Virus record (IMG/VR): IMGVR_UViG_3300047548_000560
Span: 1 to 23,294 of that record
Length of the DNA stretch: 23,294 nucleotides
Origin: a virus
Direction: 5' to 3' (one strand)
Below, in pieces: positions 1,610 through 20,980 of this stretch. The notes under the pieces are model-generated. The model was not told the origin of the DNA and searched no databases. It was given only the letters and a program-made list of their open reading frames with translations. The translations under genes were made by a program, and so were the position numbers. Every line of letters begins with the position of its first letter. Position 1 is the first letter of the stretch.

Positions 1610-2158
1610 ATGAATATTTTTTATCTATCGACTGATCCAGCACAAGCTGCCGGATGGATGGTGGATAAGCACGTAGTCAAGATGATTCTTGAAAGCGCGC
1701 AACTACTATCTACCGCGCACCGAATCATTGACGGTGTCGAAGTAGCCGGTAAATCTAAGACCGGTCGAAATGTTAAGCGTTGGGTATTGAATGACGCTCG
1801 AGATTCAGTCATCTACACAGCGACACATGTCAATCATCCGAGCGCAGTGTGGTGTCGTCAATCTGTTGAGAATTACAATTGGCTCGTGGATCACTTTCAT
1901 GCGCTCGGTAAAGAATATACTTATCGCTACGGTAAGACACATAAGTGCTTTGAGGGTGATTTAGCTTATATGCTATCTTCTCCACCAAACAACCTTCGTA
2001 AGTACGAATGGACCGAGATGCCATCAGCCATGGCTGATGAGTATAAGATTAGTAATGACCCATTGACAAACTACCGACACTATTATAAAGTGGCAAAAGC
2101 ACGTATGCATGCCTGGAAAAACAGGCAGCCACCAGAATGGATCTTTTCAGGAGTATAG
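1610..2158 (+). CDS. Conserved phage protein, MNIFYL..DKHVVKM type
   Basis: A 182-residue protein whose N-terminus, MNIFYLSTDP followed by DKHVVKMILESAQLLSTAH, is a pattern I associate with a conserved family of T4-like and cyanophage proteins of unproven function. The helical N-terminal half carries conserved-looking His residues (DKHVVKM, TAHR, HVNHPSAVW), which could be an active or metal site. The C-terminus is rich in Trp and Tyr. It starts one base after the small membrane gene and sits just upstream of the MazG-like gene, so it belongs to the same operon. I give no function. Confidence 0.75.
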   Translation: MNIFYLSTDPAQAAGWMVDKHVVKMILESAQLLSTAHRIIDGVEVAGKSKTGRNVKRWVLNDARDSVIYTATHVNHPSAVWCRQSVENYNWLVDHFHALGKEYTYRYGKTHKCFEGDLAYMLSSPPNNLRKYEWTEMPSAMADEYKISNDPLTNYRHYYKVAKARMHAWKNRQPPEWIFSGV

Positions 2159-2159
2159 T

Positions 2160-2558
2160 ATGAGTACAAATTGGTCAAAAGACATTAACGAGATGCATGA
2201 ACACTACGGTGTTCCACGGGTTGTCAAAACTATGAGTCCAGAGAAACTCAAGCAGTTCCTAGAGTTTAGGATCAACTTCATTCGCGAAGAACTAAATGAA
2301 CTAGCGACTGCTGAGACGGCAGAAGACGTAGTAGACGCCCTAATTGATCTATGTGTGGTAGCTATCGGTACACTAGATTCTTTTGAAGTAGACGCTAATG
2401 AAGCATGGGACGAAGTATTAGTAGCTAACATGAATAAGAAGACTGGCGTAAATGCTTCACGCCCGAATCCCATGGGATTACCAGACCTTATCAAGCCAGA
2501 GGGATGGAAAGCACCGTCACACGAGGGTAACCACGGGCTTCTATCTAAGGTGTTCTGA
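2160..2558 (+). CDS. MazG-like nucleoside triphosphate pyrophosphohydrolase
   Basis: A 132-residue protein. The start at 2160 is chosen because AGGAG lies about 6 bases upstream and the ATG follows the previous stop by one base; an upstream in-frame ATG at 2109 would run deep into the preceding gene. The central helices carry the all-alpha NTP pyrophosphatase signature: REELNELA, then ETAEDVVDALIDL, matching the EExxE and ExxD metal-binding pattern. Members hydrolyse (d)NTPs to monophosphates. Four genes downstream is a dCMP hydroxymethylase; phages that replace cytosine must remove dCTP, as T4 gp56 does. This gene could be the functional substitute for gp56, but that is inference. It overlaps the next gene by one base (TGATG). 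Confidence 0.78.
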   Translation: MSTNWSKDINEMHEHYGVPRVVKTMSPEKLKQFLEFRINFIREELNELATAETAEDVVDALIDLCVVAIGTLDSFEVDANEAWDEVLVANMNKKTGVNASRPNPMGLPDLIKPEGWKAPSHEGNHGLLSKVF

Positions 2559-3004
2559 TGTTTATGAATAACTGGCGTGCTGCTCTCGGCAAGTCCGGCG
2601 AGGATCTAGTACGTAGAGTCTTACAGAGTAAACATGACTTAGTAGAAGAAACTGTTTGGTATGACTCTCAGAAAGACGGCGTCGTTGACTTAAAGCAGTA
2701 TGAAGTCAAGACACTCATGGAGAACTACGCTCATCGTGCTTTCATACTTGGTTCTTCACAGTGGGCTAAGTGTGAGAACGTAGATAGACTGTTCTTCGTT
2801 CGTATTCCAGAAGTAGAAGCACCCATTCGTATCTATGAATGCCCAAAGAGTTACAGACGACCAACACATGTGTTCATGAACGGCGACAACTGTCGTGTCT
2901 TTAGGTTGACGAAACTCAACTTGTATGATACTATACACGATGAGAAGCTGGGTGAGTACTGGCGTTCTCTAACTAAAACAAAGTACATGAGGAACAAGTC
3001 ATGA
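2558..3004 (+). CDS. PD-(D/E)XK-type nuclease
   Basis: A 148-residue basic protein with the core of the PD-(D/E)XK nuclease fold: Glu15 in a leading helix (GKSGEDLVRRVL), then Asp44 and Glu49-x-Lys51 on adjacent strands (DGVVDL, YEVKT). This is the arrangement in VRR_NUC/Mrr-like and restriction-type nucleases. It starts on the stop of the MazG-like gene and overlaps the next gene by four bases. In a phage likely to carry modified cytosine, a nuclease that spares its own DNA and degrades unmodified host DNA would fit, in the way T4 endonucleases II and IV work. The fold call is motif-based; the substrate is unknown. Confidence 0.72.
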   Translation: MFMNNWRAALGKSGEDLVRRVLQSKHDLVEETVWYDSQKDGVVDLKQYEVKTLMENYAHRAFILGSSQWAKCENVDRLFFVRIPEVEAPIRIYECPKSYRRPTHVFMNGDNCRVFRLTKLNLYDTIHDEKLGEYWRSLTKTKYMRNKS

Positions 3005-3336
3005 ATGAAGATAGAGAATCAGTCAAAGTTCTCAGAGAATGTATCGAGCTTCAGAACAAGAAGTCTCAGGACTATCAAAACCCTAACTCAAATGTAACTC
3101 AAGCAATGCATTATCGTCGTGGTGTAGATACTATCCATGACACCCTACAAGGAAAGCTATACCGAGCCCAGTCTCTTTTAGAATCCGGTACTTACAATCA
3201 AGCTAACTTTGAGTCACTTGAAGATACATATAAAGACTTAATTAATTATGCTTCTTTTGCAGTAGCTTGGCTACGTGGTGGCGTACCGGGCCAAGATACA
3301 ACTAGAGACATTTTCAACCGAAAGGTCTCTGAGTGA
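3001..3336 (+). CDS. Nucleotide-modification-associated domain protein (DUF1599/Nmad1-like)
   Basis: A 111-residue helical protein. KKSQDYQNP near 20-28, then DTIHDTLQGKLYRAQSLL and ESLEDTYKDLINYASFAVAWL, resembles the small phage family annotated as DUF1599 or nucleotide modification associated domain 1. That family was named for its frequent position beside base-modification enzymes, which is where this gene sits: directly before the dCMP hydroxymethylase, overlapping it by four bases (GTGA). Its biochemical role is not established. Family assignment is from memory of the pattern, so moderate. Confidence 0.65.
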   Translation: MNEDRESVKVLRECIELQNKKSQDYQNPNSNVTQAMHYRRGVDTIHDTLQGKLYRAQSLLESGTYNQANFESLEDTYKDLINYASFAVAWLRGGVPGQDTTRDIFNRKVSE

Positions 3337-3989
3337 TAGTCCGTAATAACGTAAACACTATTCGCGAGGAGTTTAAGTGGCTCCTCGCGAATGAATTTTA
3401 TGAAGAAGATAAATCTGGTGTTAAGCTACTAGAGATAGTAAATGCTTCTTTCGTGGCAGACGAACCTTCTATCTTTGGTAAACCTAATCATTCTTACATT
3501 GAGCGTGAGATTGAGTGGTACAAATCAATGTCCCTCAATGTCAACGATATCCCGGGCGAGACACCAGCTGTCTGGAAACAAGTTGCTACACCGGATGGAC
3601 GCATTAACTCTAACTACGGGTGGTGTATCTGGTCACGAGAAAACGGTGAGCAATACAACAACGTCTTACGTGAACTCAGACAGAAGCCTACTTCTAGACG
3701 AGCCACTATGATCTATACACGACCAAGTATGTGGGTAGACTATAGTCGCGACGGTATGTCTGATTTTATGTGTACAAACGCGGTACAATATGTTATAAGA
3801 GATCAAGCATTACACGCTATCGTTCAGATGCGTAGTAACGATGTTTTCTATGGTTACAGGAATGACTTCGCTTGGAATGAATACGTACTAAAGATACTAG
3901 CGTCAGACTTAGACGTCTCTCCGGGTCTTATTCACTGGAACGTCGGGTCCCTTCACGTCTATGAACGAAACTTTAACCTGGTGAAATGA
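3333..3989 (+). CDS. gp42: Deoxycytidylate 5-hydroxymethylase (T4 gp42-like)
   Basis: A 218-residue protein that follows T4 gp42 closely: IVNASFVADEPSIFG, DIPGETPAVWKQVA, INSNYGWCIWS, SRRATMIYTRPSMWVDY, DGMSDFMCTNAVQYVIRD and HWNVGSLHVYERNF all have direct T4 counterparts. gp42 belongs to the thymidylate synthase family and uses methylene-tetrahydrofolate to make 5-hydroxymethyl-dCMP. The nucleophile is Cys147. Asp178 stands where thymidylate synthases have Asn, the residue that gives cytosine rather than uracil preference in T4. The C-terminus is about 28 residues shorter than T4 gp42. The start is GTG (3333-3335), overlapping the preceding stop. The protein predicts hydroxymethylcytosine-containing phage DNA. 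Confidence 0.93.
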   Translation: MIVRNNVNTIREEFKWLLANEFYEEDKSGVKLLEIVNASFVADEPSIFGKPNHSYIEREIEWYKSMSLNVNDIPGETPAVWKQVATPDGRINSNYGWCIWSRENGEQYNNVLRELRQKPTSRRATMIYTRPSMWVDYSRDGMSDFMCTNAVQYVIRDQALHAIVQMRSNDVFYGYRNDFAWNEYVLKILASDLDVSPGLIHWNVGSLHVYERNFNLVK

Positions 3990-4429
3990 TGAGCGACAAG
4001 TGGCACGATAATTTCTTGAAGATGGCTGAGCATATTTCCGGTTGGTCTAAAGATCCTTCTACAAAGATCGGAGCAGTGGCAGTCGGTGATCGTCGACAGA
4101 TACTAGCCACCGGTTACAATGGTTTCCCACGTGGGATCAAAGACTATCGAGACAGGCTAGAGACTCGTGAGACCAAGTATAAGTTCATGGTTCATGGTGA
4201 GATGAATTGTATTTATAACGCGACTCTCAACGGTGTCAGTCTCAACGGTGCTGACTTATACGTTCACGGTCTGCCCGTTTGTTCTGAGTGTGCGAAGGGT
4301 ATCATCCAAGTCGGTATTAAGCGTGTATTCATGCGTTACCCCGATGAAGTCTCTCAGAAGTGGCTAGGCATGGGCCTAGAGACTAAGGAGATGTTCGCAG
4401 AAGCTGGTGTAGAGTTAAATAAACTATGA
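3986..4429 (+). CDS. cd: dCMP deaminase
   Basis: A 147-residue zinc-dependent deaminase. His70 and Glu72 (VHGEMN) with Cys99 and Cys102 (PVCSEC) form the zinc site and proton shuttle; SKDPSTKIGAVAVG and ATGYNGFPRG are the substrate-side motifs of dCMP deaminases. It converts dCMP to dUMP, balancing pyrimidine pools for dTTP synthesis, and so competes with the hydroxymethylase next door for dCMP. It overlaps the hydroxymethylase by four bases (ATGA) and the next gene by four, so translation is probably coupled. Two ATGs in tandem are available for the start. Confidence 0.93.
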   Translation: MMSDKWHDNFLKMAEHISGWSKDPSTKIGAVAVGDRRQILATGYNGFPRGIKDYRDRLETRETKYKFMVHGEMNCIYNATLNGVSLNGADLYVHGLPVCSECAKGIIQVGIKRVFMRYPDEVSQKWLGMGLETKEMFAEAGVELNKL

Positions 4430-5634
4430 AAAAAGTTATAGTAATAGATAGTTTAACAGAAACTTTTAATGGGCCAATCGTCAGGAGCGGCTTACAGAAG
4501 AGCGCTAAGCTAGACGCTCGTGCTTTTGCTAAAATGGGTTATGATACAACATTTTTATATTGTGGTGTTATTGATGATCATTACCCATACGAAAAGATCT
4601 GTCTGAACGACATCGGTGCTAAAGAAGACGTAGCTCGCCATGGAAAGCATATGCGTGCTTCTGGTAACTACGTCAAGTCTTACTTGAACAGATCTAGTAA
4701 TACGCTGTTAGAAGCTGACTACATTGTGGCTCATTGTCACTCAGTGGGTATGATGACTGGCATCAACGCGATGGTAAAAGATAAGAAGATACTCTTCATC
4801 ATTCATGATGTGATAGATCTTACTTGGGCGTGTGGTTTTACCAATGCTGTAAATAACATGCGAGCGACAGGAAGAAACTACACGCACATAGCTACTAACT
4901 CTCAGTATAGTATCGCGAGACTAGATTATATCTACTCTAGAGCTAAAGATAGGTTTGAATTATTGAGTGGTAATGAAGCTTTTGATAGTTTCATACGTCA
5001 CTTTGTCTGGTCTGACGTGAATCCCACTAGAGAAGAAATTATTCAGCATGAAAAAAAGTCTGCCGTCATAGGCAGGTATGAACCAGCTAAATATCATCAC
5101 AAGTTGTATAAGTACAAAAACCCAGAAAACATCATAGTTCATTACGGGATCAAGGATCCTCGTCGTGACGAGGGTCTGAAGTATTACGAGAACTTAAAGA
5201 TTAAAGCAAATGCTTACTCCGAGAACCTGTCTGATGAAGATCTGTGGGAGTCTATAAAGACTAGTCAGTCCATTATACTACCATGTTATCACGAAGGGTT
5301 TGGATTCACAGCTTTTGAAGCTGGTATATTTGGTGTAGCCCCAGTCATACTAGTTCATGACCAAGGGTTACACAAGGGTCAGCACGCTCACGCGACTGTT
5401 CAATACTTGACTAGGGCTGGGACTAAACACTTTACCGCCGACTTCAACGATGAAGATTCGATCATTCGAGCGATCGATGATTCTTTACAAATCACGGAAC
5501 AAGATAGGATCGACATCTCTAGTAGCCTATTATCGTACTTCACTGTTGAGAATTATGTTAACGAGAGGATAGAGTTACTTGAGTCTGCTAAAAAAATTAA
5601 CATTGAATCTAGCTTAGAGAGTTTTTTTGAATGA
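4426..5634 (+). CDS. GT-B glycosyltransferase (GT4-like), candidate DNA hydroxymethylcytosine glycosyltransferase
   Basis: A 402-residue two-domain protein. The N-terminal half alternates strands and helices (KKVIVIDSL, DYIVAHCHSVG, KILFIIHDV), as in a GT-B fold. The C-terminal half has strands VIGRYEP and IIVHYGI, then CYHEGFGFTAFEAG, where Glu290 and Glu298 make the E-x7-E motif that contacts the nucleotide sugar in GT4 enzymes. No signal peptide is present, so it is cytoplasmic. Overlap with dCMP deaminase upstream and the methyltransferase homologue downstream, in a run that starts with dCMP hydroxymethylase, suggests that it glycosylates hydroxymethylcytosine in DNA, as T4 AGT/BGT do. 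I see no close resemblance to either T4 enzyme; the DNA role is inference. Confidence 0.8.
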   Translation: MKKVIVIDSLTETFNGPIVRSGLQKSAKLDARAFAKMGYDTTFLYCGVIDDHYPYEKICLNDIGAKEDVARHGKHMRASGNYVKSYLNRSSNTLLEADYIVAHCHSVGMMTGINAMVKDKKILFIIHDVIDLTWACGFTNAVNNMRATGRNYTHIATNSQYSIARLDYIYSRAKDRFELLSGNEAFDSFIRHFVWSDVNPTREEIIQHEKKSAVIGRYEPAKYHHKLYKYKNPENIIVHYGIKDPRRDEGLKYYENLKIKANAYSENLSDEDLWESIKTSQSIILPCYHEGFGFTAFEAGIFGVAPVILVHDQGLHKGQHAHATVQYLTRAGTKHFTADFNDEDSIIRAIDDSLQITEQDRIDISSSLLSYFTVENYVNERIELLESAKKINIESSLESFFE

Positions 5635-6827
5635 AACACGCTACCATAGTACCACTCATCGGTGGTATGACACTTGGTGCTGAAAAGTCTTTCGGTGAAA
5701 GACCATCATATCTGATGTCATACAAGCCGTTTTATTTTAATGATCGTCACCTACTCAATCATTACGATAACGAAGTTCCTTACCATGTGCTAGATGACGG
5801 CCAGAAACCAAATAACAAAGTAGAAGTAGTATCCTCTGTTTGTCCATGCGCAGGGCTATCACAGCTCTCACACGGCTTCGGTGATCATAACGAGAACAAC
5901 AAGTGGATGGTCACCACTACTAAGTATGTGTTAGAAGACCTGAAGCCCAGCGTCCTGTACGGTGAAAACGCACCAGGATTCGCCGGTAAGATCGGTCAGA
6001 CTGTTCGTGAACAACTACGCGCTATTGCGTCCGACGCTGGTTACACCATGAGCGTCTATCGAACCAAGTCACTGTTTCACGGCGTCCCACAGATCCGGGA
6101 ACGTTCTTTTTACTTTTTCTGGCGTGGTGACAAGACACCCGTGTTTAACTATTACCGTCGTGATAGGTTAAGTATTGAAGACACCATTCGCTCAGCTTTT
6201 GGCAACACCCAGCGTGAAGTTATTAATAAGAAGACACCGAGTAAAGACGATCCGTACTATCGTTACATACTAGAAGTCATTCATAAGGGTGTGACTCACA
6301 AAGAGTTCTGTTCTATGATTGAACCAATGAAAGCGCGTGGTAATGATGTTCTGTCTTACATCGAGCTAATGGGACATAGCTACACAACTGTTGGTGAATG
6401 GATGCACAAAAACGGGTATGACAAAGAAGTGCAGAAGTGTGAGTACCGAGTAAAGAAAGTAGCCGAGGGTGGAAACTTGATGCGCCGCGGCACTGTCATA
6501 CCAAAAGATTACATCGGTGCTTTCGTCGGTCATTATCCCATGATGTTGACACACCCAGACGAAGACCGTTATATCAATTATCGCGAAGCCATGACTATTA
6601 TGGGTATGCCACAGAATTTTGAGCTCCTGGATCAAAACAAGACTACTAATCATATTTGTCAGAACGTGCCCGTACAGACAGCTGCCGACATGGCCACTGA
6701 AGTGATGGCTTCTCTAAACGGAGAGAGGGAGTGGATTGACTCTTCATACGTCTTTCAATACAGTCATACTCAGAAGCACGAAGTAGCAGACACACGCACA
6801 AAGACTCTAGTTGACTTTTTGAATTAA
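5631..6827 (+). CDS. C5-cytosine DNA methyltransferase homologue in a hydroxymethylation cassette
   Basis: A 398-residue protein with the ordered motifs of C5-cytosine methyltransferases. Motif I-like PLIGGMTLGAEKSFG near the N-terminus; motif IV CPCAGLS with nucleophile Cys73 after Pro72; motif VI GENAPG with Glu112-Asn113; motif VIII GVPQIRER (154-158, QxRxR); and a C-terminal block INYREAMTIMGMPQNF then QNVPVQTAADMA resembling motifs IX-X, with QN in place of the usual GN. The segment between VIII and IX is the place of the target-recognition domain. The catalytic residues are intact. It overlaps the glycosyltransferase by four bases. If cytosine is already replaced by hydroxymethylcytosine, ordinary C5 methylation is blocked, so its substrate is a puzzle. 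Confidence 0.85.
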   Translation: MKHATIVPLIGGMTLGAEKSFGERPSYLMSYKPFYFNDRHLLNHYDNEVPYHVLDDGQKPNNKVEVVSSVCPCAGLSQLSHGFGDHNENNKWMVTTTKYVLEDLKPSVLYGENAPGFAGKIGQTVREQLRAIASDAGYTMSVYRTKSLFHGVPQIRERSFYFFWRGDKTPVFNYYRRDRLSIEDTIRSAFGNTQREVINKKTPSKDDPYYRYILEVIHKGVTHKEFCSMIEPMKARGNDVLSYIELMGHSYTTVGEWMHKNGYDKEVQKCEYRVKKVAEGGNLMRRGTVIPKDYIGAFVGHYPMMLTHPDEDRYINYREAMTIMGMPQNFELLDQNKTTNHICQNVPVQTAADMATEVMASLNGEREWIDSSYVFQYSHTQKHEVADTRTKTLVDFLN

Positions 6828-8608: not shown

Positions 8609-9262
8609 ATGAAGCTAAGTGCACGGACTATCAATATTCTAAAGAACTTCAGTACAATCAACCCATCGATCGTACTGAAGCCAGGTAACACGGTAGCGAC
8701 TATTTCTACCAACAAAACTATCATGGCTCGAGCCACAGTCCCCGATGAGTTTACTAACGTTATCGCGATCTATAACCTAGCGCGATTCATCTCGACTATG
8801 TCTCTCTTTCAAGACCCGGAACTCGATTTTGGTACTAATGCGGTTCGTATCTCGTCTGGTAACAAGAGCAACACGTATCACTACGCGGATCCGTCAGTCA
8901 TTCTCGCTCCACCCGAGAAAGAAATCAAGCTACCGACCATCGACGTCGATTGCTTCTTGACTAACAAGGACATCCAAGACGTGACTAAGGCTATGAACGT
9001 CCTTGGTCTGCCAGAACTAGCTGTAGTCGGTGACGGCACTAACGTCATGCTTCAGGCCATCGACGTTAAGAACCCATCTGCGGATGAATATAGCATCGTT
9101 GTGGCTGAGACTGATAAGACTTTCCGCGCGGTGTTCCGTGCCGAGAACCTCAAGCTAATGGATGGTGACTATCAGCTTACTATTTCTTCTAAGGGTATCT
9201 CTCAGTTTACCGGCACTGAAGCCACGTATTGGATCGCGGTGGAAGCTTCTTCTACTTTTTGA
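8609..9262 (+). CDS. gp45: DNA polymerase sliding clamp gp45
   Basis: A 217-residue protein that matches T4 gp45 (228 residues). The start MKLSARTINILKNFSTINPS parallels T4 MKLSKDTTALLKNFATINSG, and AIYNLARFISTMSL, ADPSVILAPP and the C-terminal EATYWIAVEASS have direct counterparts. gp45 forms the trimeric processivity ring and in T4 also activates late transcription. AAAGGAG at 8589-8595 is 13 bases from the ATG, an unusually long gap; in T4 the gp45 start region is a RegA operator, and regA is present in this cluster, so the initiation region may be regulated. It heads the replisome block 45-44-62-regA. Confidence 0.92.
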   Translation: MKLSARTINILKNFSTINPSIVLKPGNTVATISTNKTIMARATVPDEFTNVIAIYNLARFISTMSLFQDPELDFGTNAVRISSGNKSNTYHYADPSVILAPPEKEIKLPTIDVDCFLTNKDIQDVTKAMNVLGLPELAVVGDGTNVMLQAIDVKNPSADEYSIVVAETDKTFRAVFRAENLKLMDGDYQLTISSKGISQFTGTEATYWIAVEASSTF

Positions 9263-9679: not shown

Positions 9680-10618
9680 GTGCTAGAAGATTATCTCTGG
9701 GTCGAAAAGTATCGTCCAAAGCGTGTGGTCGATACTATCTTACCGTGTGACCTAAAGAACACGTTTCAGGGATTTGTCGACACCGGTAACATCCCAAACC
9801 TGACTCTTGCTGGTAACGCTGGTGTGGGTAAGACTACAGTAGCACGTGCTATGCTTGAAGAACTTGGGTGTGACTACATCATCATCAACGGATCAATGAA
9901 TGGTAACATCGATACTCTTCGTAACGAAATCTTACAGTTTGCTTCTTCTGTCTCTTTGACTGGCGGTAGGAAGTATGTCATCCTTGATGAGGCTGACTAT
10001 CTAAACCCAAACTCCACGCAACCCAGTCTCCGTAACTTCATGGAGGAGTTTTCTAAGAACTGTGGGTTTATCCTTACTTGCAACTACAAGAATAGGATCA
10101 TTCCGCCACTTCAGTCTCGTGCTCTAGTCATTGACTTCAATATCCCTAAGAAAGAAATGGCAAAGCTAGCGGCGCAATTCATGAAGCGTGTAGATGTTAT
10201 CCTGAAAGCTGAGAACATCGAGTGCGACAAGCACGCTGTGGCTGCAGTCATTCAAAAGTTCTTTCCTGACTGGCGACGCGTACTCAATGAGCTGCAACGG
10301 TACTCGGTCAACGGAAAGATTGACACCGGTATTCTGACTAACTTTGAGACTGTGTCAGTTAAAGAAGTACTGCAGTACTGCAAGGATAAGAACCTAGAGG
10401 GTATCCGCAAGTGGATCCACGAGAATTCTGACTCCGATACAGTCACCATCTTTCGTACTATCTATGATAACGCGAATGACTTCTTCACTAAGCGTTCGAT
10501 TCCAGCCCTCATTTTAAAGATCTCAGAGTATCAATACAAGGCAGCTTTTGTGGCTGACGCTGAGATCAACCTGATGGCTTTCTTCATCGAAGTGACTATG
10601 GAGTGTGAATTTGCATGA
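9680..10618 (+). CDS. gp44: Clamp loader large subunit gp44 (AAA+ ATPase)
   Basis: A 312-residue AAA+ protein close in length to T4 gp44 (319). It opens with the clamp-loader motif VEKYRPKRVVDTILP, then Walker A GNAGVGKT (45-52), Walker B and sensor region ILDEADYLN (101-109), a sensor-1-type FILTCNYKNRIIPPLQSRA, and FPDWRRVLNEL around sensor 2. Four gp44 copies with one gp62 open the gp45 ring on primed DNA. The start is GTG at 9680 behind AAAGG (9666-9670). It overlaps the next gene by four bases (ATGA), as in T4. Confidence 0.93.
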   Translation: MLEDYLWVEKYRPKRVVDTILPCDLKNTFQGFVDTGNIPNLTLAGNAGVGKTTVARAMLEELGCDYIIINGSMNGNIDTLRNEILQFASSVSLTGGRKYVILDEADYLNPNSTQPSLRNFMEEFSKNCGFILTCNYKNRIIPPLQSRALVIDFNIPKKEMAKLAAQFMKRVDVILKAENIECDKHAVAAVIQKFFPDWRRVLNELQRYSVNGKIDTGILTNFETVSVKEVLQYCKDKNLEGIRKWIHENSDSDTVTIFRTIYDNANDFFTKRSIPALILKISEYQYKAAFVADAEINLMAFFIEVTMECEFA

Positions 10619-11103
10619 CGGAAGTAAGTACACTCTTTGGAGTCAAGCACGTAAAAGAGGAGCTTATTGAAAAGAAAGACGAGGTGCATGTATGGACTTT
10701 CATCTCTGACATTTCAAAGACTAAGAAGTATCTCTTCTCTGAAGAAACAGCTCGAGCGTACGAACCATGGATCGTCAATAAGTCTTTCGCCTCACACGTC
10801 GACACGCTAGCCGCGGCTGAAGCGGCCAACCGCATGCATCACATCGATAAGAAGATGCAGCACGACTTCATGTTCTATTCTGTGACTGCTCACCCAAAGC
10901 GCTACAAGCCATGGCTAAAAAAATCAGAAGCAGATAAAAAAGAACAAAAGATGTTTGAAGATATTGGTACTATAGTCAATCTAAACCTAGACAGAGTCAA
11001 GAGTTTCTGGAGAATTTTGACTTCCGAGCAACGCGAAGACTTTCTGTCTAGGTATGTTTATCCAGATACAAAAAATAACCTAAAACAAAGAAAAAATAAA
11101 TAA
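10615..11103 (+). CDS. gp62: Clamp loader small subunit gp62-like
   Basis: A 162-residue protein immediately after and overlapping gp44, in the conserved position of gp62 before regA. The centre, PWIVNKSFASHVDTLAAAEAANRM followed by HHIDKKMQHDFMFYSV and KRYKPWLKK, resembles the gp62 of marine T4-like phages more than T4 gp62 itself. gp62 is the non-ATPase subunit that joins the gp44 tetramer to the clamp. Sequence similarity in this family is weak, so the call leans on order, size and the KRYxxW block. Confidence 0.8.
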   Translation: MTEVSTLFGVKHVKEELIEKKDEVHVWTFISDISKTKKYLFSEETARAYEPWIVNKSFASHVDTLAAAEAANRMHHIDKKMQHDFMFYSVTAHPKRYKPWLKKSEADKKEQKMFEDIGTIVNLNLDRVKSFWRILTSEQREDFLSRYVYPDTKNNLKQRKNK

Positions 11104-11883: not shown

Positions 11884-12339
11884 ATGACTAAGCAGTACGA
11901 AATCTCTATCGGTTGTGACCACGCCGGGCTTGAACTAGCTAGACAGCTATCAGCTTGGCTCTTTGACGTGGGTCACACTATCTATACTTTCTTTCCAGAA
12001 GAAAAGTCTAAAGTGGACTATCCCGATTACGCTTACAAGACGTGTTCATCCGTGACACTGAGTTCACATACGGTGTCTCGTGGTATCTTGGTCTGCGGGT
12101 CCGGCGTGGGTATGTCTATCGCTGCGAATCGATTCAAGGGCATCCGGTGTGTACTGGCTTCTGATCCTTATGTAGCTGAGATGTCTCGTCGACACAATGA
12201 CACTAATGTCATCGCTCTCGGTGCTAGAGTCATCGGTTCAGACATGGCGGTAGCTTGTATAGAATCGTTCTTAAACACTTCTTACGAGGGTGGTCGCCAC
12301 GAGCAACGAGTGATGAAACTATTTAACATGAAAGATTGA
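11884..12339 (+). CDS. rpiB: Ribose-5-phosphate isomerase B
   Basis: A 151-residue protein of the RpiB/LacAB family, near full length. Seen: GCDHAG near the N-terminus (catalytic-site Asp-His), YPDYA, ILVCGSGVGMSIAANR with the active-site Cys, SRRHNDTNVIALGARVIG with the phosphate/ring-opening His, and YEGGRHEQRV. All key residues of E. coli RpiB are present, apart from a conservative Thr-to-Ser in CGTG. It interconverts ribose-5-phosphate and ribulose-5-phosphate, supplying ribose for nucleotide synthesis. In a phage this is an auxiliary metabolic gene, plausibly boosting dNTP supply. It overlaps pstS by one base. Confidence 0.93.
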   Translation: MTKQYEISIGCDHAGLELARQLSAWLFDVGHTIYTFFPEEKSKVDYPDYAYKTCSSVTLSSHTVSRGILVCGSGVGMSIAANRFKGIRCVLASDPYVAEMSRRHNDTNVIALGARVIGSDMAVACIESFLNTSYEGGRHEQRVMKLFNMKD

Positions 12340-13310
12340 TGATGAAATTTGTATACGGACTACTAGCAGCTACTATCTTTACTTCTGTGTCTCAAGCACA
12401 GACCATCACCGGGGCGGGTGCTACTTTTCCAGCACCAGTCTATAGCAAGTGGGCAGAAGCGTCTAAGAAAGATGGGTTCTCTGTAAACTACCAATCGGTG
12501 GGATCTGGTGCTGGACAGACACAGATCATCAATCGAACCGTTGACTTTGGTGCTTCTGACGCTCCACTCGATAAGAACAGGCTAGATACTAACAAGCTGA
12601 TTCAGGTGCCATCAGTTATGGGGTCTATCACCATCGTAGTAAACATCCCGGGTGTAACTAGTGATAAGCTAAATCTCTCTGGTCCTGTCATCGTAGACAT
12701 CTTTAGGGGCGTTATTAATAGGTGGAATCATCCTGCTATCGCGGCCGATAACCCTGGCTTGACTCTCCCAAACATCGCCATCAGTCCCATCTATCGCGCC
12801 GATGGTTCTGGTACGACGCATGTCTTTACTAGTTGGTTAGCTACACAGAGTCAAGAGTGGAAAGATGTTGGCACTTCAGTAAAATGGTCTGCCGGTATGG
12901 GTGCTAGGGGTAACGAGGGAATCTCGGCTTTTGTTAAGCGAGTTAATGGTTCCATTGGCTATGTGGAAAGTGCTTATGTAAAAGCAAATGGTCTAACATC
13001 AACTAATCTTAAAACATCTACAGGCAAGTGGGTATCGGCAAATCCTAATAATTTTGCTGCAGCTGCAGCAAAAACCGAATGGACTGAAAATAACGAATCA
13101 CTTGGACTAAACACCAGTTGTGATACGTGTTATCCGATCTTATCAGCCACTTACGTCCTCATCCCTAGGGACGGAAAGAATAAGAACAATGTAGAAAAGT
13201 GGCTAAAGTGGGCATATGATAACGGAGACGAGATTGCGTCTTCTTTACATTACGTTCCTCTTCCTCGAGGAGTCAAAGATCGAGTGATCAAGACACTCAA
13301 TACTGATTGA
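12339..13310 (+). CDS. pstS: PstS-like periplasmic phosphate-binding protein
   Basis: About 323 residues. Start at ATG 12339 (TGATG overlap with rpiB); ATG 12342 and TTG 12336 are alternatives. A signal peptide (MMKFVYGLLAATIFTSVSQAQ, cleavage near AQA) is followed by ITGAGATFPAPVYSKW, YQSVGSGAGQTQI, DFGASDAPL, YRADGSGTTHVFTSWL and MGARGNEGISAFV, the ordered phosphate-contact motifs of PstS. It would work in the host periplasm with the host PstCAB importer; no permease is encoded nearby. Marine phages often carry pstS, where it is thought to relieve phosphate limitation during DNA synthesis. The last codon's stop is part of the next promoter's -35. Confidence 0.93.
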   Translation: MMKFVYGLLAATIFTSVSQAQTITGAGATFPAPVYSKWAEASKKDGFSVNYQSVGSGAGQTQIINRTVDFGASDAPLDKNRLDTNKLIQVPSVMGSITIVVNIPGVTSDKLNLSGPVIVDIFRGVINRWNHPAIAADNPGLTLPNIAISPIYRADGSGTTHVFTSWLATQSQEWKDVGTSVKWSAGMGARGNEGISAFVKRVNGSIGYVESAYVKANGLTSTNLKTSTGKWVSANPNNFAAAAAKTEWTENNESLGLNTSCDTCYPILSATYVLIPRDGKNKNNVEKWLKWAYDNGDEIASSLHYVPLPRGVKDRVIKTLNTD

Positions 13311-16080: not shown

Positions 16081-17346
16081 CTATGTCTCCATGTTTTCTC
16101 TGTCACAAACGAAAGCAGTGACTGCTACGTTTCCATAAACATGACTAGCGGTACGAATCATATCCATTATAGGATCTACAGCTATTAATAATACAATAAT
16201 AGCTTCATGTGGTAGTTGCAACAAGTCACACACTATACTCACTGTAGCCACCGTTAATACACCAGTAGTGCCAGCACTAGCTAAACCAGCTAGTATGGCA
16301 CCAAATAACACCATTGATAGAGCTATCCATGTTAAACTTATCCCATAGATGTTTGCTATGAATAATGTAGCTATGGCATAATAAGTTATAGATCCAATCC
16401 TATTAACTGTAAAGCTTAATGGAACCATTAATTCGACAGAACCTCTGTCGAACTTAAGCTTAGTCAATGCTTCTTGCGCATATGGTATGCACGCAAGACT
16501 ACTTCTAGATGATATAGCTACTATTACTGTGTCTTTTACTGATAAGAGTATAGAAAATATAGATGTTCCTCTGCATCTTAATGCAATGACAATAGTAGCT
16601 ATAATCAATATAGCTAAACCGCCAAGAGCTTGTTGAATTATAAATTCAAGCAAAGTTTCAAAAATAGATAAACCAACTTTACCAACTTGACTTGAAATCA
16701 TAGCTAATAAAGCAAATGGTAAAAAGTAATTTAAAAATTTAAATATGCTTATTGAAGCATTTTGTATAGCTTGCAGAGCACTGACTATAATAGTCATACC
16801 TTCATTTTTTAGTTGCCCGAGGGCAATGCCAAAGATTAAGCAGAATACAACTACCTTTAAACTCTCTCCAGTATTCAGACTCTGAAAGATATTTTCTGGT
16901 ATGAATTTAGTGTAGATAGAAGGACCATCATCTTTCTTTTCTTCTTTATCTTTATGTAATGCAATTTCTAAATCGACTGCTCCTTGGTCTCTGTCAGTGA
17001 CTAGAGATCCCATTTTTGCTTGTTTTTCTGGTGTCATATCTGATGAAGTCAACATCACTGTTCCAACACCAACGCTTGAAGCTAAAATCATAGATAATAT
17101 GAAACCAAATATGATCCGCTTAATCATTCCAGCGGCATCATCTTTTTGTAGTAAACTTATGATGCCAACAAGTATAGTGGCTAATAAGAATGGTAAGACT
17201 ACTACTTTTAATAGACTAAGGTAAATTAAACCGACATCTTCAAATTCTATGCTTTCAGCAGGAAAATAAAATCCAAATGCTACACCAGCTACTATAGCAC
17301 TTAATACAGTAAACGGATTAGTCAGAATTTTTTTTAACATATTCAT
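16081..17346 (-). CDS. SDF-family (dicarboxylate/amino acid:cation) symporter with altered cation sites
   Basis: A 421-residue multi-spanning inner-membrane protein. Start at 17346 because AAGGAA sits seven bases upstream; it lies four bases after the binding protein's stop. The SDF signature is clear: a Ser-rich ISSRSSLACIP hairpin, TVNRIGS where the family has NMDGT, the AGLASAGTTGV hairpin, and DPIMDMIRTASHVYGN. By GltPh numbering, D394, R397 and T398, which hold the substrate, are kept, while D312 is Ile, M311 Arg, N401 His and D405 Asn, removing sodium ligands. It should import an acidic amino acid or dicarboxylate with changed coupling. Such a transporter in a phage is unusual. Confidence 0.88.
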   Translation of the reverse strand: MNMLKKILTNPFTVLSAIVAGVAFGFYFPAESIEFEDVGLIYLSLLKVVVLPFLLATILVGIISLLQKDDAAGMIKRIIFGFILSMILASSVGVGTVMLTSSDMTPEKQAKMGSLVTDRDQGAVDLEIALHKDKEEKKDDGPSIYTKFIPENIFQSLNTGESLKVVVFCLIFGIALGQLKNEGMTIIVSALQAIQNASISIFKFLNYFLPFALLAMISSQVGKVGLSIFETLLEFIIQQALGGLAILIIATIVIALRCRGTSIFSILLSVKDTVIVAISSRSSLACIPYAQEALTKLKFDRGSVELMVPLSFTVNRIGSITYYAIATLFIANIYGISLTWIALSMVLFGAILAGLASAGTTGVLTVATVSIVCDLLQLPHEAIIVLLIAVDPIMDMIRTASHVYGNVAVTAFVCDRENMET

Positions 17347-17350
17347 CTGA

Positions 17351-18166
17351 CTATTCCTTGTTATTATCATAATATTTCTTTAACATAGAAAGAAGATTCT
17401 TAACTTCTATGTTATTATAGTCATTTTTTATAACATGATCTATTATAGTGAGTAAATGTGTGCTATTTGGAGGAACAGCTGCAGCTATATTATCTACAGA
17501 ATCGGTAAACACGACTGTTTTAGTATGAATGGATGCTGTTGGTTTTTCCATAGTTAAACGTTTTATTTCAAATTCATCTCTAAAACCAGCTGAGTATTTT
17601 CCCGATATAACACCATTAACTATGTTATCCCAACTAGTCTCTGGACTGTATATTGCTCTAGGAAAAGAAGTACGAGCAAACGTATCATAACTAGAATTAG
17701 CTATAAAAGATATTGATCCATTAAAAGTTTTTATAGTAGTTTCTTGATCACCATTCTTGGTGTTTTGGCTTAACCATAGACGATTAACTATCATTGCCTG
17801 ATGTAGTCTTACGTATGGTGTAGAAAACTTGACTACATTCATTCTTGGACCAGTTATTGACAATTTGCTAATAGCCATGTCAGCTTTGCCAGATACTATT
17901 TGATCTATAACACCTGCAAACGAAGTAGCGTCCCTGTTAAACACAACAGGGACGCCAAGAATCTTAGCTACTTTTTTAGCAATATCAACATCTAAGCCAG
18001 TCATATTATTGATAGTCCCGCCATAAAATGGTGGTGTATCAAAAGCAGTCATGGCTACTATAAGCTTATCTCTCTGTTTTATTTCTGCTATATCTGGTGG
18101 ATACACAGTTTGTGCATGCGCTTTAAAGCAGAATAAAAAGAGTATAAGAAACAAAAAAGCTTTCAT
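17351..18166 (-). CDS. Periplasmic amino-acid-binding protein (SBP family 3)
   Basis: A 271-residue family 3 solute-binding protein. A signal peptide (MKAFLFLILFLFCFKAHAQ) precedes two lobes: KLIVAMTAFDTPPFYGG, GLDVDIAKKVAKILGVPVVF, SGKADMAISKLSITGPRMNVVKFSTPYV with the ligand-carboxylate Arg108, and in lobe 2 SGKYSAGFRDEFEIKR with an Asp at the usual amino-group position. It should bind an amino acid in the host periplasm. No ABC permease is present; instead it is cotranscribed with an SDF symporter. Its start codon lies in the stem of the hairpin at 18152-18223, and its first codons (ATG AAA GCT TTT TTG) form that hairpin's T-run. Confidence 0.92.
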   Translation of the reverse strand: MKAFLFLILFLFCFKAHAQTVYPPDIAEIKQRDKLIVAMTAFDTPPFYGGTINNMTGLDVDIAKKVAKILGVPVVFNRDATSFAGVIDQIVSGKADMAISKLSITGPRMNVVKFSTPYVRLHQAMIVNRLWLSQNTKNGDQETTIKTFNGSISFIANSSYDTFARTSFPRAIYSPETSWDNIVNGVISGKYSAGFRDEFEIKRLTMEKPTASIHTKTVVFTDSVDNIAAAVPPNSTHLLTIIDHVIKNDYNNIEVKNLLSMLKKYYDNNKE

Positions 18167-20578: not shown

Positions 20579-20980
20579 ATGAGTCGAGACCACTCGTATT
20601 ACATGAACACCCTCGAGAAGCTAGCCATTGCTTCCGAGGGTGCGGCTAACGCTAAGTTGGCTGCGTGTATCGTTGCTAAGAACCAAGTAGTAAGTTTTGG
20701 TTTCAATAGACTCAAGTCACATCCATTTCAAAAGAAGTTTGGGCGTAATGCTGACTCTATTTTTCTTCACGCCGAGACTGACGCTATTCGTAATGCATTA
20801 AAGTGTGTAGACGTCGAAGACCTTAAGAAGTCCACGATGTACGTCTGTAGAGTCAAGAAGATCAATAAAAAGTTTTGTTGGGGTCTCGCCAAGCCGTGCG
20901 AGGGTTGTACCAGGGCCATAGCGACCTTCAACATACGAAACGTCATCTACACGGATGATGATGGATTGAAGTCACTATAA
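20579..20980 (+). CDS. Cytidine/deoxycytidylate deaminase-family protein
   Basis: A 133-residue zinc deaminase-fold protein: LAACIVAKNQVVSFGFNRLKS, then HAETDAI (His64, Glu66) and PCEGCTRAI (Cys107, Cys110). All zinc ligands and the catalytic Glu are kept. It is shorter than, and clearly different from, the dCMP deaminase at 3986-4429, so its substrate may be a different free nucleotide, nucleoside, or modified base. The KSHPFQKKFGRNADSIFLHAE loop is typical of a group of phage deaminase-like proteins of unclear substrate. Confidence 0.85.
   Translation: MSRDHSYYMNTLEKLAIASEGAANAKLAACIVAKNQVVSFGFNRLKSHPFQKKFGRNADSIFLHAETDAIRNALKCVDVEDLKKSTMYVCRVKKINKKFCWGLAKPCEGCTRAIATFNIRNVIYTDDDGLKSL

Follow-up and report, generated by a model that had tools for sequence, protein, structure and literature searches.

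A C5-methyltransferase-like phage protein with an altered cofactor pocket and a polymerase-like tail, encoded beside a dCMP hydroxymethylase

The pathway of phage T4 that leads from a dCMP 5-hydroxymethylase (HMase, gp42) to alpha-glucosyltransferase contains, to our knowledge, no homologue of DNA cytosine C5-methyltransferases (C5-MTases). What, then, could such a homologue do beside an HMase? The question is raised by a viral DNA of 23,294 nucleotides (IMG/VR record IMGVR_UViG_3300047548_000560, positions 1 to 23,294; hereafter the window), in which an operon with an HMase gene includes a gene for a C5-MTase-like protein (Table 1). A preliminary description, made from the sequence alone, noted that the protein keeps its nucleophile in a genome expected to lack free cytosine C5, and offered several explanations, which are taken up below. 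Ordinary C5-MTases (PF00145), such as M.HhaI, M.HaeIII, Dcm and DNMT1, have in common with this protein their fold and the catalytic Cys, Glu-Asn and Arg. In vitro, C5-MTases are reported to act on 5-hydroxymethylcytosine (hmC), or to make it, without ordinary methyl transfer (PMC11347137, PMC7176277): M.HhaI forms hmC with formaldehyde, and by M.SssI hmC is joined to a thiol (PMC7176277). Gln82 and Asn304 are described as the positions shortened in C5-MTases engineered for bulky-group transfer, the double replacement Q82A/N304A opening M.HhaI to such groups (PMC10666283). A natural relative with another donor is CmoX (8YF3), the DNA cytosine C5-carboxymethyltransferase of Synechococcus phage S-B43, where the adenine is held by Asp69 and stacked by Phe25 and Phe48, Glu47 holds the ribose hydroxyls, and Arg350, in place of M.HhaI Asn304, touches the carboxymethyl group (PMC12783734). 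In the family described here, as read from alignments, the S-adenosylmethionine (SAM) pocket is systematically altered while the residues of covalent catalysis are intact. A full-text literature search, with subscription papers mostly outside its reach, found no published description of this family, and PMC12838424 and PMC13390438 added no C5-MTase of its kind; C5-methylases are mentioned for T4-type groups in which non-canonical-base genes are not known (PMC8056088).

The gene is an intact open reading frame (ORF) starting with ATG. Its product matches PF00145 in Pfam (E 5.9e-18, 65.8 bits, cut-off 22) within profile positions 48-321, leaving the N-terminal part with motif I unmatched, and its PADLOC matches point to C5-MTases generally, type II and others, with nothing specific. 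An AlphaFold2 model with an input of 36 window and IMG/VR sequences (mean predicted local distance difference test, pLDDT, 90.8) has solved C5-MTases as its structural matches, namely M.HaeIII (Z 26.7; root-mean-square deviation, rmsd, 2.9 over 274 against 1dct), DNMT1 (Z 25.7), M.HhaI (Z 25.0; rmsd 3.3 over 292 against 2uyc) and CmoX (Z 23.2); the predicted fold is that of a C5-MTase. To count residues, the family was collected with a hidden Markov model (HMM) built from A1 (E 1e-8, at least 300 residues), which gave 117 unique members; five ordinary enzymes passing this HMM were set aside as comparators, and 79 ordinary viral C5-MTases formed the control set, gapped rows being left out of each count. 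Protein counts for residues, tree and tails refer to unique sequences, and those of thymidylate synthase (TS) company, gene cassettes and HMase loci to loci that were not dereplicated. Pro72-Cys73, Glu112-Asn113 and Q-I-R-E-R (Gln154, Arg156, Arg158) had been placed correctly in the preliminary description, and Cys73, Glu112, Asn113, Arg156, Arg158 and also Gln344 are invariant (117/117).

Residues were mapped onto ordinary C5-MTases by profile-profile alignment (hhalign, 98% probability) at five settings, over which the register was identical for motifs I, II, IV, VI and VIII; the pairing of motif X comes from three of them, the other two stopping before it. The M.HhaI numbers used agree with the alignment. 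Val7 and Leu9 pair with M.HhaI Phe18 and Gly20, Ser30 with Glu40, Ala74 with Gln82, Ala114 with Val121, and Gln344 with Asn304. Among the 117 members, position 7 is Val in 75, Ile in 38 and Phe in two (two gaps); position 9 is Leu in 113/115 and Phe in two (two gaps); position 30 is Ser in 107, Thr in six and Glu in two (two gaps), so that Ser or Thr stands in place of Glu40 in 113/115; position 74 is Ala in 113 and Ser in four; position 114 is Ala in 115 and Ser in two; and the Asn304 position is Gln in 117/117. The control set has Phe18 in 72/76, Gly20 in 76/76, Glu or Asp at position 40 in 76/77, Gln82 in 74/78 (Ala in four), Val121 in 79/79, and at position 304 Asn in 72/77, Arg in four and Asp in one. 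Thus the motif I Phe and Gly and the motif II Glu or Asp, which are SAM-site features of ordinary C5-MTases, are missing in nearly all members of this family. It had been noticed before that the Asn of motif X is preceded by Gln instead of Gly; the Gln is there, but it stands in the place of the motif X Asn, because M.HhaI Asn304 aligns with Gln344 and Ser305 with Asn345. Read against M.HhaI and CmoX, these replacements mean that two known gate positions are changed and the ribose-binding Glu is lost, and the earlier suggestion that the protein uses another cofactor fits such a pocket. The smaller side chains at the places of Gln82 and Val121, together with the altered donor site, would suit chemistry of the hmC/formaldehyde and hmC/thiol type.

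The C terminus is another peculiarity. The C5-MTase-like protein of the window ends in TKTLVDFLN and the glycosyltransferase (GT) encoded before it in SSLESFFE, a pattern that the remaining 27 ORFs tested from the window do not have. It is found in 103/120 unique C5-MTase-like proteins of the window's clade, many of the misses being one residue off, against a background of 1.6% of shuffled tails, 64/2072 ORFs outside the family and 1/79 ordinary viral C5-MTases. Family-B DNA polymerases of related records share this tail in 8/8 (TLEDFFS, TLESFFG, TIEDFFT and others), a ninth record being without a polymerase hit. T4 gp43 ends in SLDFLFG, and it is this end which presumably binds the sliding clamp gp45. 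Counted on unique tails of the partner families, with the pattern drawn slightly narrower, the tail occurs in K56a (29/32), the window's GT type (5/5), TAGT (4/4) and AGT (8/30), all of them families described below, with HMase 0/107, GT365 0/36, a downstream GT-like gene 0/92 and dCMP deaminase 2/96. T4 alpha-glucosyltransferase is reported to pull down gp45 (PMC13216743). The tail of the window's clade is probably a sliding-clamp-binding motif, and the C5-MTase-like protein and several partner GTs would then be clamp clients acting on new DNA. Since the tail is polymerase-like, action on host DNA, one of the explanations first offered, is disfavoured in the window's clade. MTase-like proteins of the S-TIM5-like loci L177-L190 end in a conserved tail of their own (MEPIW and variants), unlike the polymerase tail.

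What surrounds the gene is a set of genes for cytosine modification. The genes for the DUF1599-like protein, HMase, dCMP deaminase, GT and C5-MTase-like protein are consecutive, with four-base overlaps between neighbours, and the operon is translationally coupled. Among solved structures T4 gp42 is the best match of the window HMase (E 5.1e-82), which is about 59% identical to its T4-type phage matches and in which Ser93, Tyr95, Asp144, Cys147 and Asp178 correspond to Ser94, Tyr96, Asp145, Cys148 and Asp179 of T4; this set is found in 107/110 HMase rows, the other three being gapped. These residues are described as important in T4 HMase, with Asp179 deciding between dCMP and dUMP (PMC6400193). 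TS homologues of environmental modified-cytosine contigs are likewise reported to have mostly Asp at this position and to co-occur with the deaminase/pyrophosphohydrolase domains PF00383, PF14437 and PF01503 (PMC8670742), and these domains are also in the window. Because a sliding clamp, clamp loader genes and, by PHROG search, RegA are encoded in the window, the phage is T4-like. The expectation that its genome lacks free cytosine C5 gains from the HMase in the same operon, but replacement of cytosine may be incomplete, as a search of the window and of 11 other IMG/VR records gave no T4-type dCTPase. A gp56 homologue was absent from 11 IMG/VR records, six with and five without the C5-MTase-like gene, and it is therefore uninformative as a reason for presence or absence of the latter; phage XG4 has both. 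A pathway of the TET/JBP type, 5-methylcytosine and then oxidation, was set aside on the finding of no Tet_JBP dioxygenase (PF12851) in 13 records, a weak negative in that no control genome gave a match either.

Table 1. Features of the window (all coordinates on the window; residue numbers are those of the C5-MTase-like protein unless stated otherwise).
Feature	Position	Strand	Basis
MazG-like nucleotide pyrophosphohydrolase	2109..2558	+	Pfam
DUF1599-like (nucleotide modification associated) protein; 4-base overlap with HMase	3001..3336	+	24.2 bits, just below cut-off 25
dCMP 5-hydroxymethylase (HMase), T4 gp42 family; HMase Cys147 and Asp178	3333..3989	+	profile and structure-database matches, active-site residues
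dCMP deaminase	3986..4429	+	Pfam
Glycosyltransferase (GT), 402 aa, PF00534; 4-base overlap with C5-MTase-like gene; ends SSLESFFE	4426..5634	+	ORF, Pfam
C5-methyltransferase-like protein, 398 aa	5631..6827	+	ORF, Pfam, structure, family conservation
Altered motif I: residues 8-12 P-L-I-G-G for A-G-x-G-G; HhaI Gly20 replaced by Leu9	5652..5666	+	hhalign, conservation
Ser30, aligned with ribose-binding motif II Glu (HhaI Glu40)	5718..5720	+	hhalign, conservation
Cys73 (nucleophile) and Ala74 (HhaI Gln82)	5847..5852	+	hhalign, conservation
Glu112-Asn113-Ala114 (HhaI Glu119-Asn120-Val121)	5964..5972	+	hhalign, conservation
Gln344-Asn345 of motif X (HhaI Asn304-Ser305)	6660..6665	+	hhalign, conservation
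C-terminal tail TLVDFLN, polymerase-like; probable sliding-clamp-binding motif	6804..6824	+	tail pattern comparison
Sliding clamp, T4 gp45 family; proposed tether	8609..9262	+	phrog_223, E 6.5e-74
Clamp loader genes, gp44 and gp62 families	9680..11103	+	PHROG search

Elsewhere in the window, a gene that by eye is RpiB-like precedes one for a phosphate-binding protein of the PstS type (phrog_5385, E 1e-62) at positions 11884-13310, and the product of 20579-20980 looks by eye like a second deaminase of the dCMP type. Two neighbouring minus-strand genes at 16081-18166 encode, by eye, a symporter-like and a periplasmic-binding-like protein, where G+C is lower (about 0.34) and PHROG matches are to families of unknown function only; these are possibly acquired host genes.

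Is the GT next to the C5-MTase-like gene always the same? Between the HMase and C5-MTase-like genes, a GT-family gene is present in 73/76 loci, a TAGT-family ORF is seen in the other three (L049, L050, L054), and 13 different gene combinations occur. In many relatives the GT coupled to the gene is of the AGT type (PF11440), which is the sole intervening gene in 20 loci. Other cassettes contain an unnamed 365-residue family (GT365) with or without UDP-galactopyranose mutase and epimerase, the GT type of the window, a TET-associated GT with epimerase and UDP-glucose dehydrogenase, a kinase/cytidylyltransferase set, or the K56a family, which is related to proteins of Aeromonas T4-like phages; they are thus more varied than that of T4. 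Calling GT365 and K56a GTs is based on their context, one K56a member giving only a weak beta-GT match (E 0.036), and the predicted structure of the window's GT (pLDDT 59.2 from seven rows) was too poor for a fold search. On a FastTree tree of 132 unique proteins, 110 of them labelled, the GT type changes 21 times versus 51-62 times in 20 shuffles. Because the GT is swapped and HMase loci without the C5-MTase-like gene exist, the latter follows hmC synthesis and not a given sugar, and the sugar genes are independent of it. A constant pairing, which the preliminary description had proposed to look for, is therefore rejected in the narrow sense of one GT family: many loci have a GT of another family or an enzyme of sugar-nucleotide metabolism at this place, and S-TIM5 and phage G carry the genes at scattered positions. 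At L056:5645-9998, and also in L117, L118 and L138, up to four genes (K56a-d) replace the known GT, including a gene of the pyridoxal phosphate type that matches the PHROG 'threonine dehydratase' (phrog_7093, E 9.5e-35) and may mark an amino-type hypermodification of hmC; K56-type loci without the C5-MTase-like gene often lack K56c too. A conserved gene of about 120-130 residues recurs between dCMP deaminase and GT (L054:6182-6559 and similar), with a weak match to the uracil-DNA-glycosylase superfamily or DUF1643 (E 7.4e-5).

The family is widespread in marine and freshwater bacterial viruses with modified-cytosine DNA. A tblastn search found it in 8 of 50,697 phage records (S-TIM5 and relatives, XG4 and phage G), and IMG/VR gave 64 loci by single-sequence search and at least 590 stretches by alignment search, of which the best 80 were kept. 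It also occurs in 11 contigs labelled as bacterial metagenome-assembled genomes, eight of them with HMase; these are probably phage contigs that were binned. In all 14 records searched for PF00145, the number of such genes is one. A TS homologue with the dCMP-type Asp accompanies the gene in 71/73 loci with at least 7 kb upstream, 19/22 with 4-7 kb and 23/72 with less than 4 kb; the two misses among the 73 are the IMG/VR copy of phage G and its relative, and phage G has an Asp-type TS elsewhere. All 123 TS hits in the loci have the Asp, the search model itself being built from Asp-type sequences. Seen from the other side, 49 of the best 80 HMase loci have the C5-MTase-like gene, as do 31/40 with at least 7 kb downstream, and the gene is therefore accessory and not needed by the GTs.

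The described phages with homologues are more distant. S-TIM5 gp080, Bacillus phage G gp301 and the homologue of Pseudoalteromonas phage vB_Psh_XG4, 24-31% identical to the window protein, have the Gln344, Ala/Ser74 and Ala114 signature in common with it, and a TS homologue with the dCMP-type Asp is accompanied by an AGT-type GT in S-TIM5 and phage G and by other GT-like genes in XG4. The TS homologue of S-TIM5 has the Asp and lacks equivalents of T4 Ser94 and Asp145; a separate ThyX-like protein (by eye), an annotated alpha-glucosyltransferase and a dCMP deaminase are all dispersed in that genome. The unannotated XG4 record (PP712099.1, 100-7549; L003) has HMase, a nucleotidyltransferase/kinase fusion, two GT-like genes, the MTase-like gene and a T4-type dCTPase together. 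In phage G (JN638751.1, 219417-234164), gp301, two AGT-type GTs and the Asp-type TS homologue lie within about 15 kb, which suggests modified cytosine in its DNA.

We give an even chance to the reading that the protein is a repurposed C5-MTase with an unusual cofactor site which, tethered to the fork, acts at C5 of (hydroxymethyl)cytosine as phage DNA is made. It would be held on the gp45-type clamp at the replication fork, (hydroxymethyl)cytosine would be flipped out of freshly made DNA, Cys73 would attach to C6 with Glu112 at N3, and a C5 reaction would follow that takes up more space than methyl transfer and in which SAM does not play its usual part. The hydroxymethyl group may be exchanged or removed, as first suggested, or added, or at some sites another nucleophile may take the place of its hydroxyl. 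Only tentatively do we go further and suppose a natural SAM-independent C5 enzyme, which would apply the Cys-C6 mechanism to nascent hmC while bound to the clamp and swap, add or remove the C5 substituent; equally tentative is the idea that this would be the biological counterpart of the reactions of C5-MTases with hmC/formaldehyde and hmC/thiol in vitro.

Several observations weigh against the fork-tethered enzyme. In the homologue of phage G and in one relative, motif II still has its Glu and motif I its Phe, together with Gln344, Ser74 and Ala114, and therefore, by the signature alone, the cofactor may still be an adenosyl compound; Asp55 may also keep an adenine-binding role, though its hhalign register is unsettled. 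The polymerase-like tail is missing in homologues of S-TIM5-like phages (0/14), XG4 and phage G, and T4 alpha-glucosyltransferase is without it despite binding gp45; the DNA polymerase of S-TIM5 ends differently from its MTase homologue, and therefore the argument from the tail holds for the window's clade only. The gene is missing from 9/40 HMase loci, several of them with the same GT families, and two contigs without it (198,633 and 167,756 bases) have no PF00145 gene at all, so its job must be dispensable.

An ordinary SAM-dependent C5-MTase with a divergent pocket, methylating residual or host cytosine, e.g., for restriction escape before or beside hydroxymethylation, is unlikely, even though plain methylation of residual cytosine is possible. 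Fold and catalytic residues are those of C5-MTases, some cytosine could remain since no T4-type dCTPase was found, and the motifs kept in phage G speak for it. However, pocket positions mostly kept in ordinary viral enzymes, i.e., the equivalents of motif I, the motif II Glu, Gln82, Val121 and Asn304, are swapped for other conserved residues, the C-terminal tail and gene partners differ as well, and the NCBIfam dcm superfamily model gives only 29.7 bits (cut-off 100.65). The target-recognition part (residues 170-300) is conserved, with a mean pairwise identity of 0.52 versus 0.19 in 11 ordinary enzymes, sets that differ in depth, which is unlike restriction-driven enzymes. GAP161 and Olmo, two T4-type phages with ordinary C5-MTases, have no HMase match.

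Less probable still is a SAM-derived donor other than SAM, as CmoX uses carboxy-SAM, by which a larger group would be put onto free cytosine or hmC. Like CmoX, the protein is a phage C5-MTase relative in the service of DNA hypermodification; the Asn304 position is changed in both, and Ala stands at that of Gln82, as Ala and Arg do at these two positions in four ordinary viral C5-MTases each. But the residue at the Asn304 position is Gln and not Arg, SPPC is replaced by V-C-P-C in the window protein (Cys before Pro72 in 37/39, Pro in 2/39), the ribose-binding Glu is gone in nearly all members, the companion is an HMase-GT cassette, and a CmoA-type synthase (TIGR00740) was found in 0/14 records, most of them fragments; identity with the CmoX type was rejected on the Arg and SPPC. 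Most doubtful is a protein without catalysis that would flip bases, or read hmC, on behalf of the neighbouring GT, akin to the guiding role first suggested: the four-base overlap and the tail common to both speak for it, but the catalytic Cys, Glu and Arg are invariant, the GT partner is exchanged among unrelated families, GT cassettes exist without the gene, and T4 GTs work, as far as we know, without such a protein.

What would the fork-tethered enzyme mean, if it is true? The C5-MTase fold would gain a new chemistry, and reactions of hmC without SAM, now in vitro tricks of epigenome mapping, would have a precedent in nature. It would also suggest that the tail motif of the polymerase itself steers base-modifying enzymes of T4-like phages to new DNA, and would account for a gene often met with in phage DNA from the environment, for which the label 'DNA methyltransferase' is possibly misleading.

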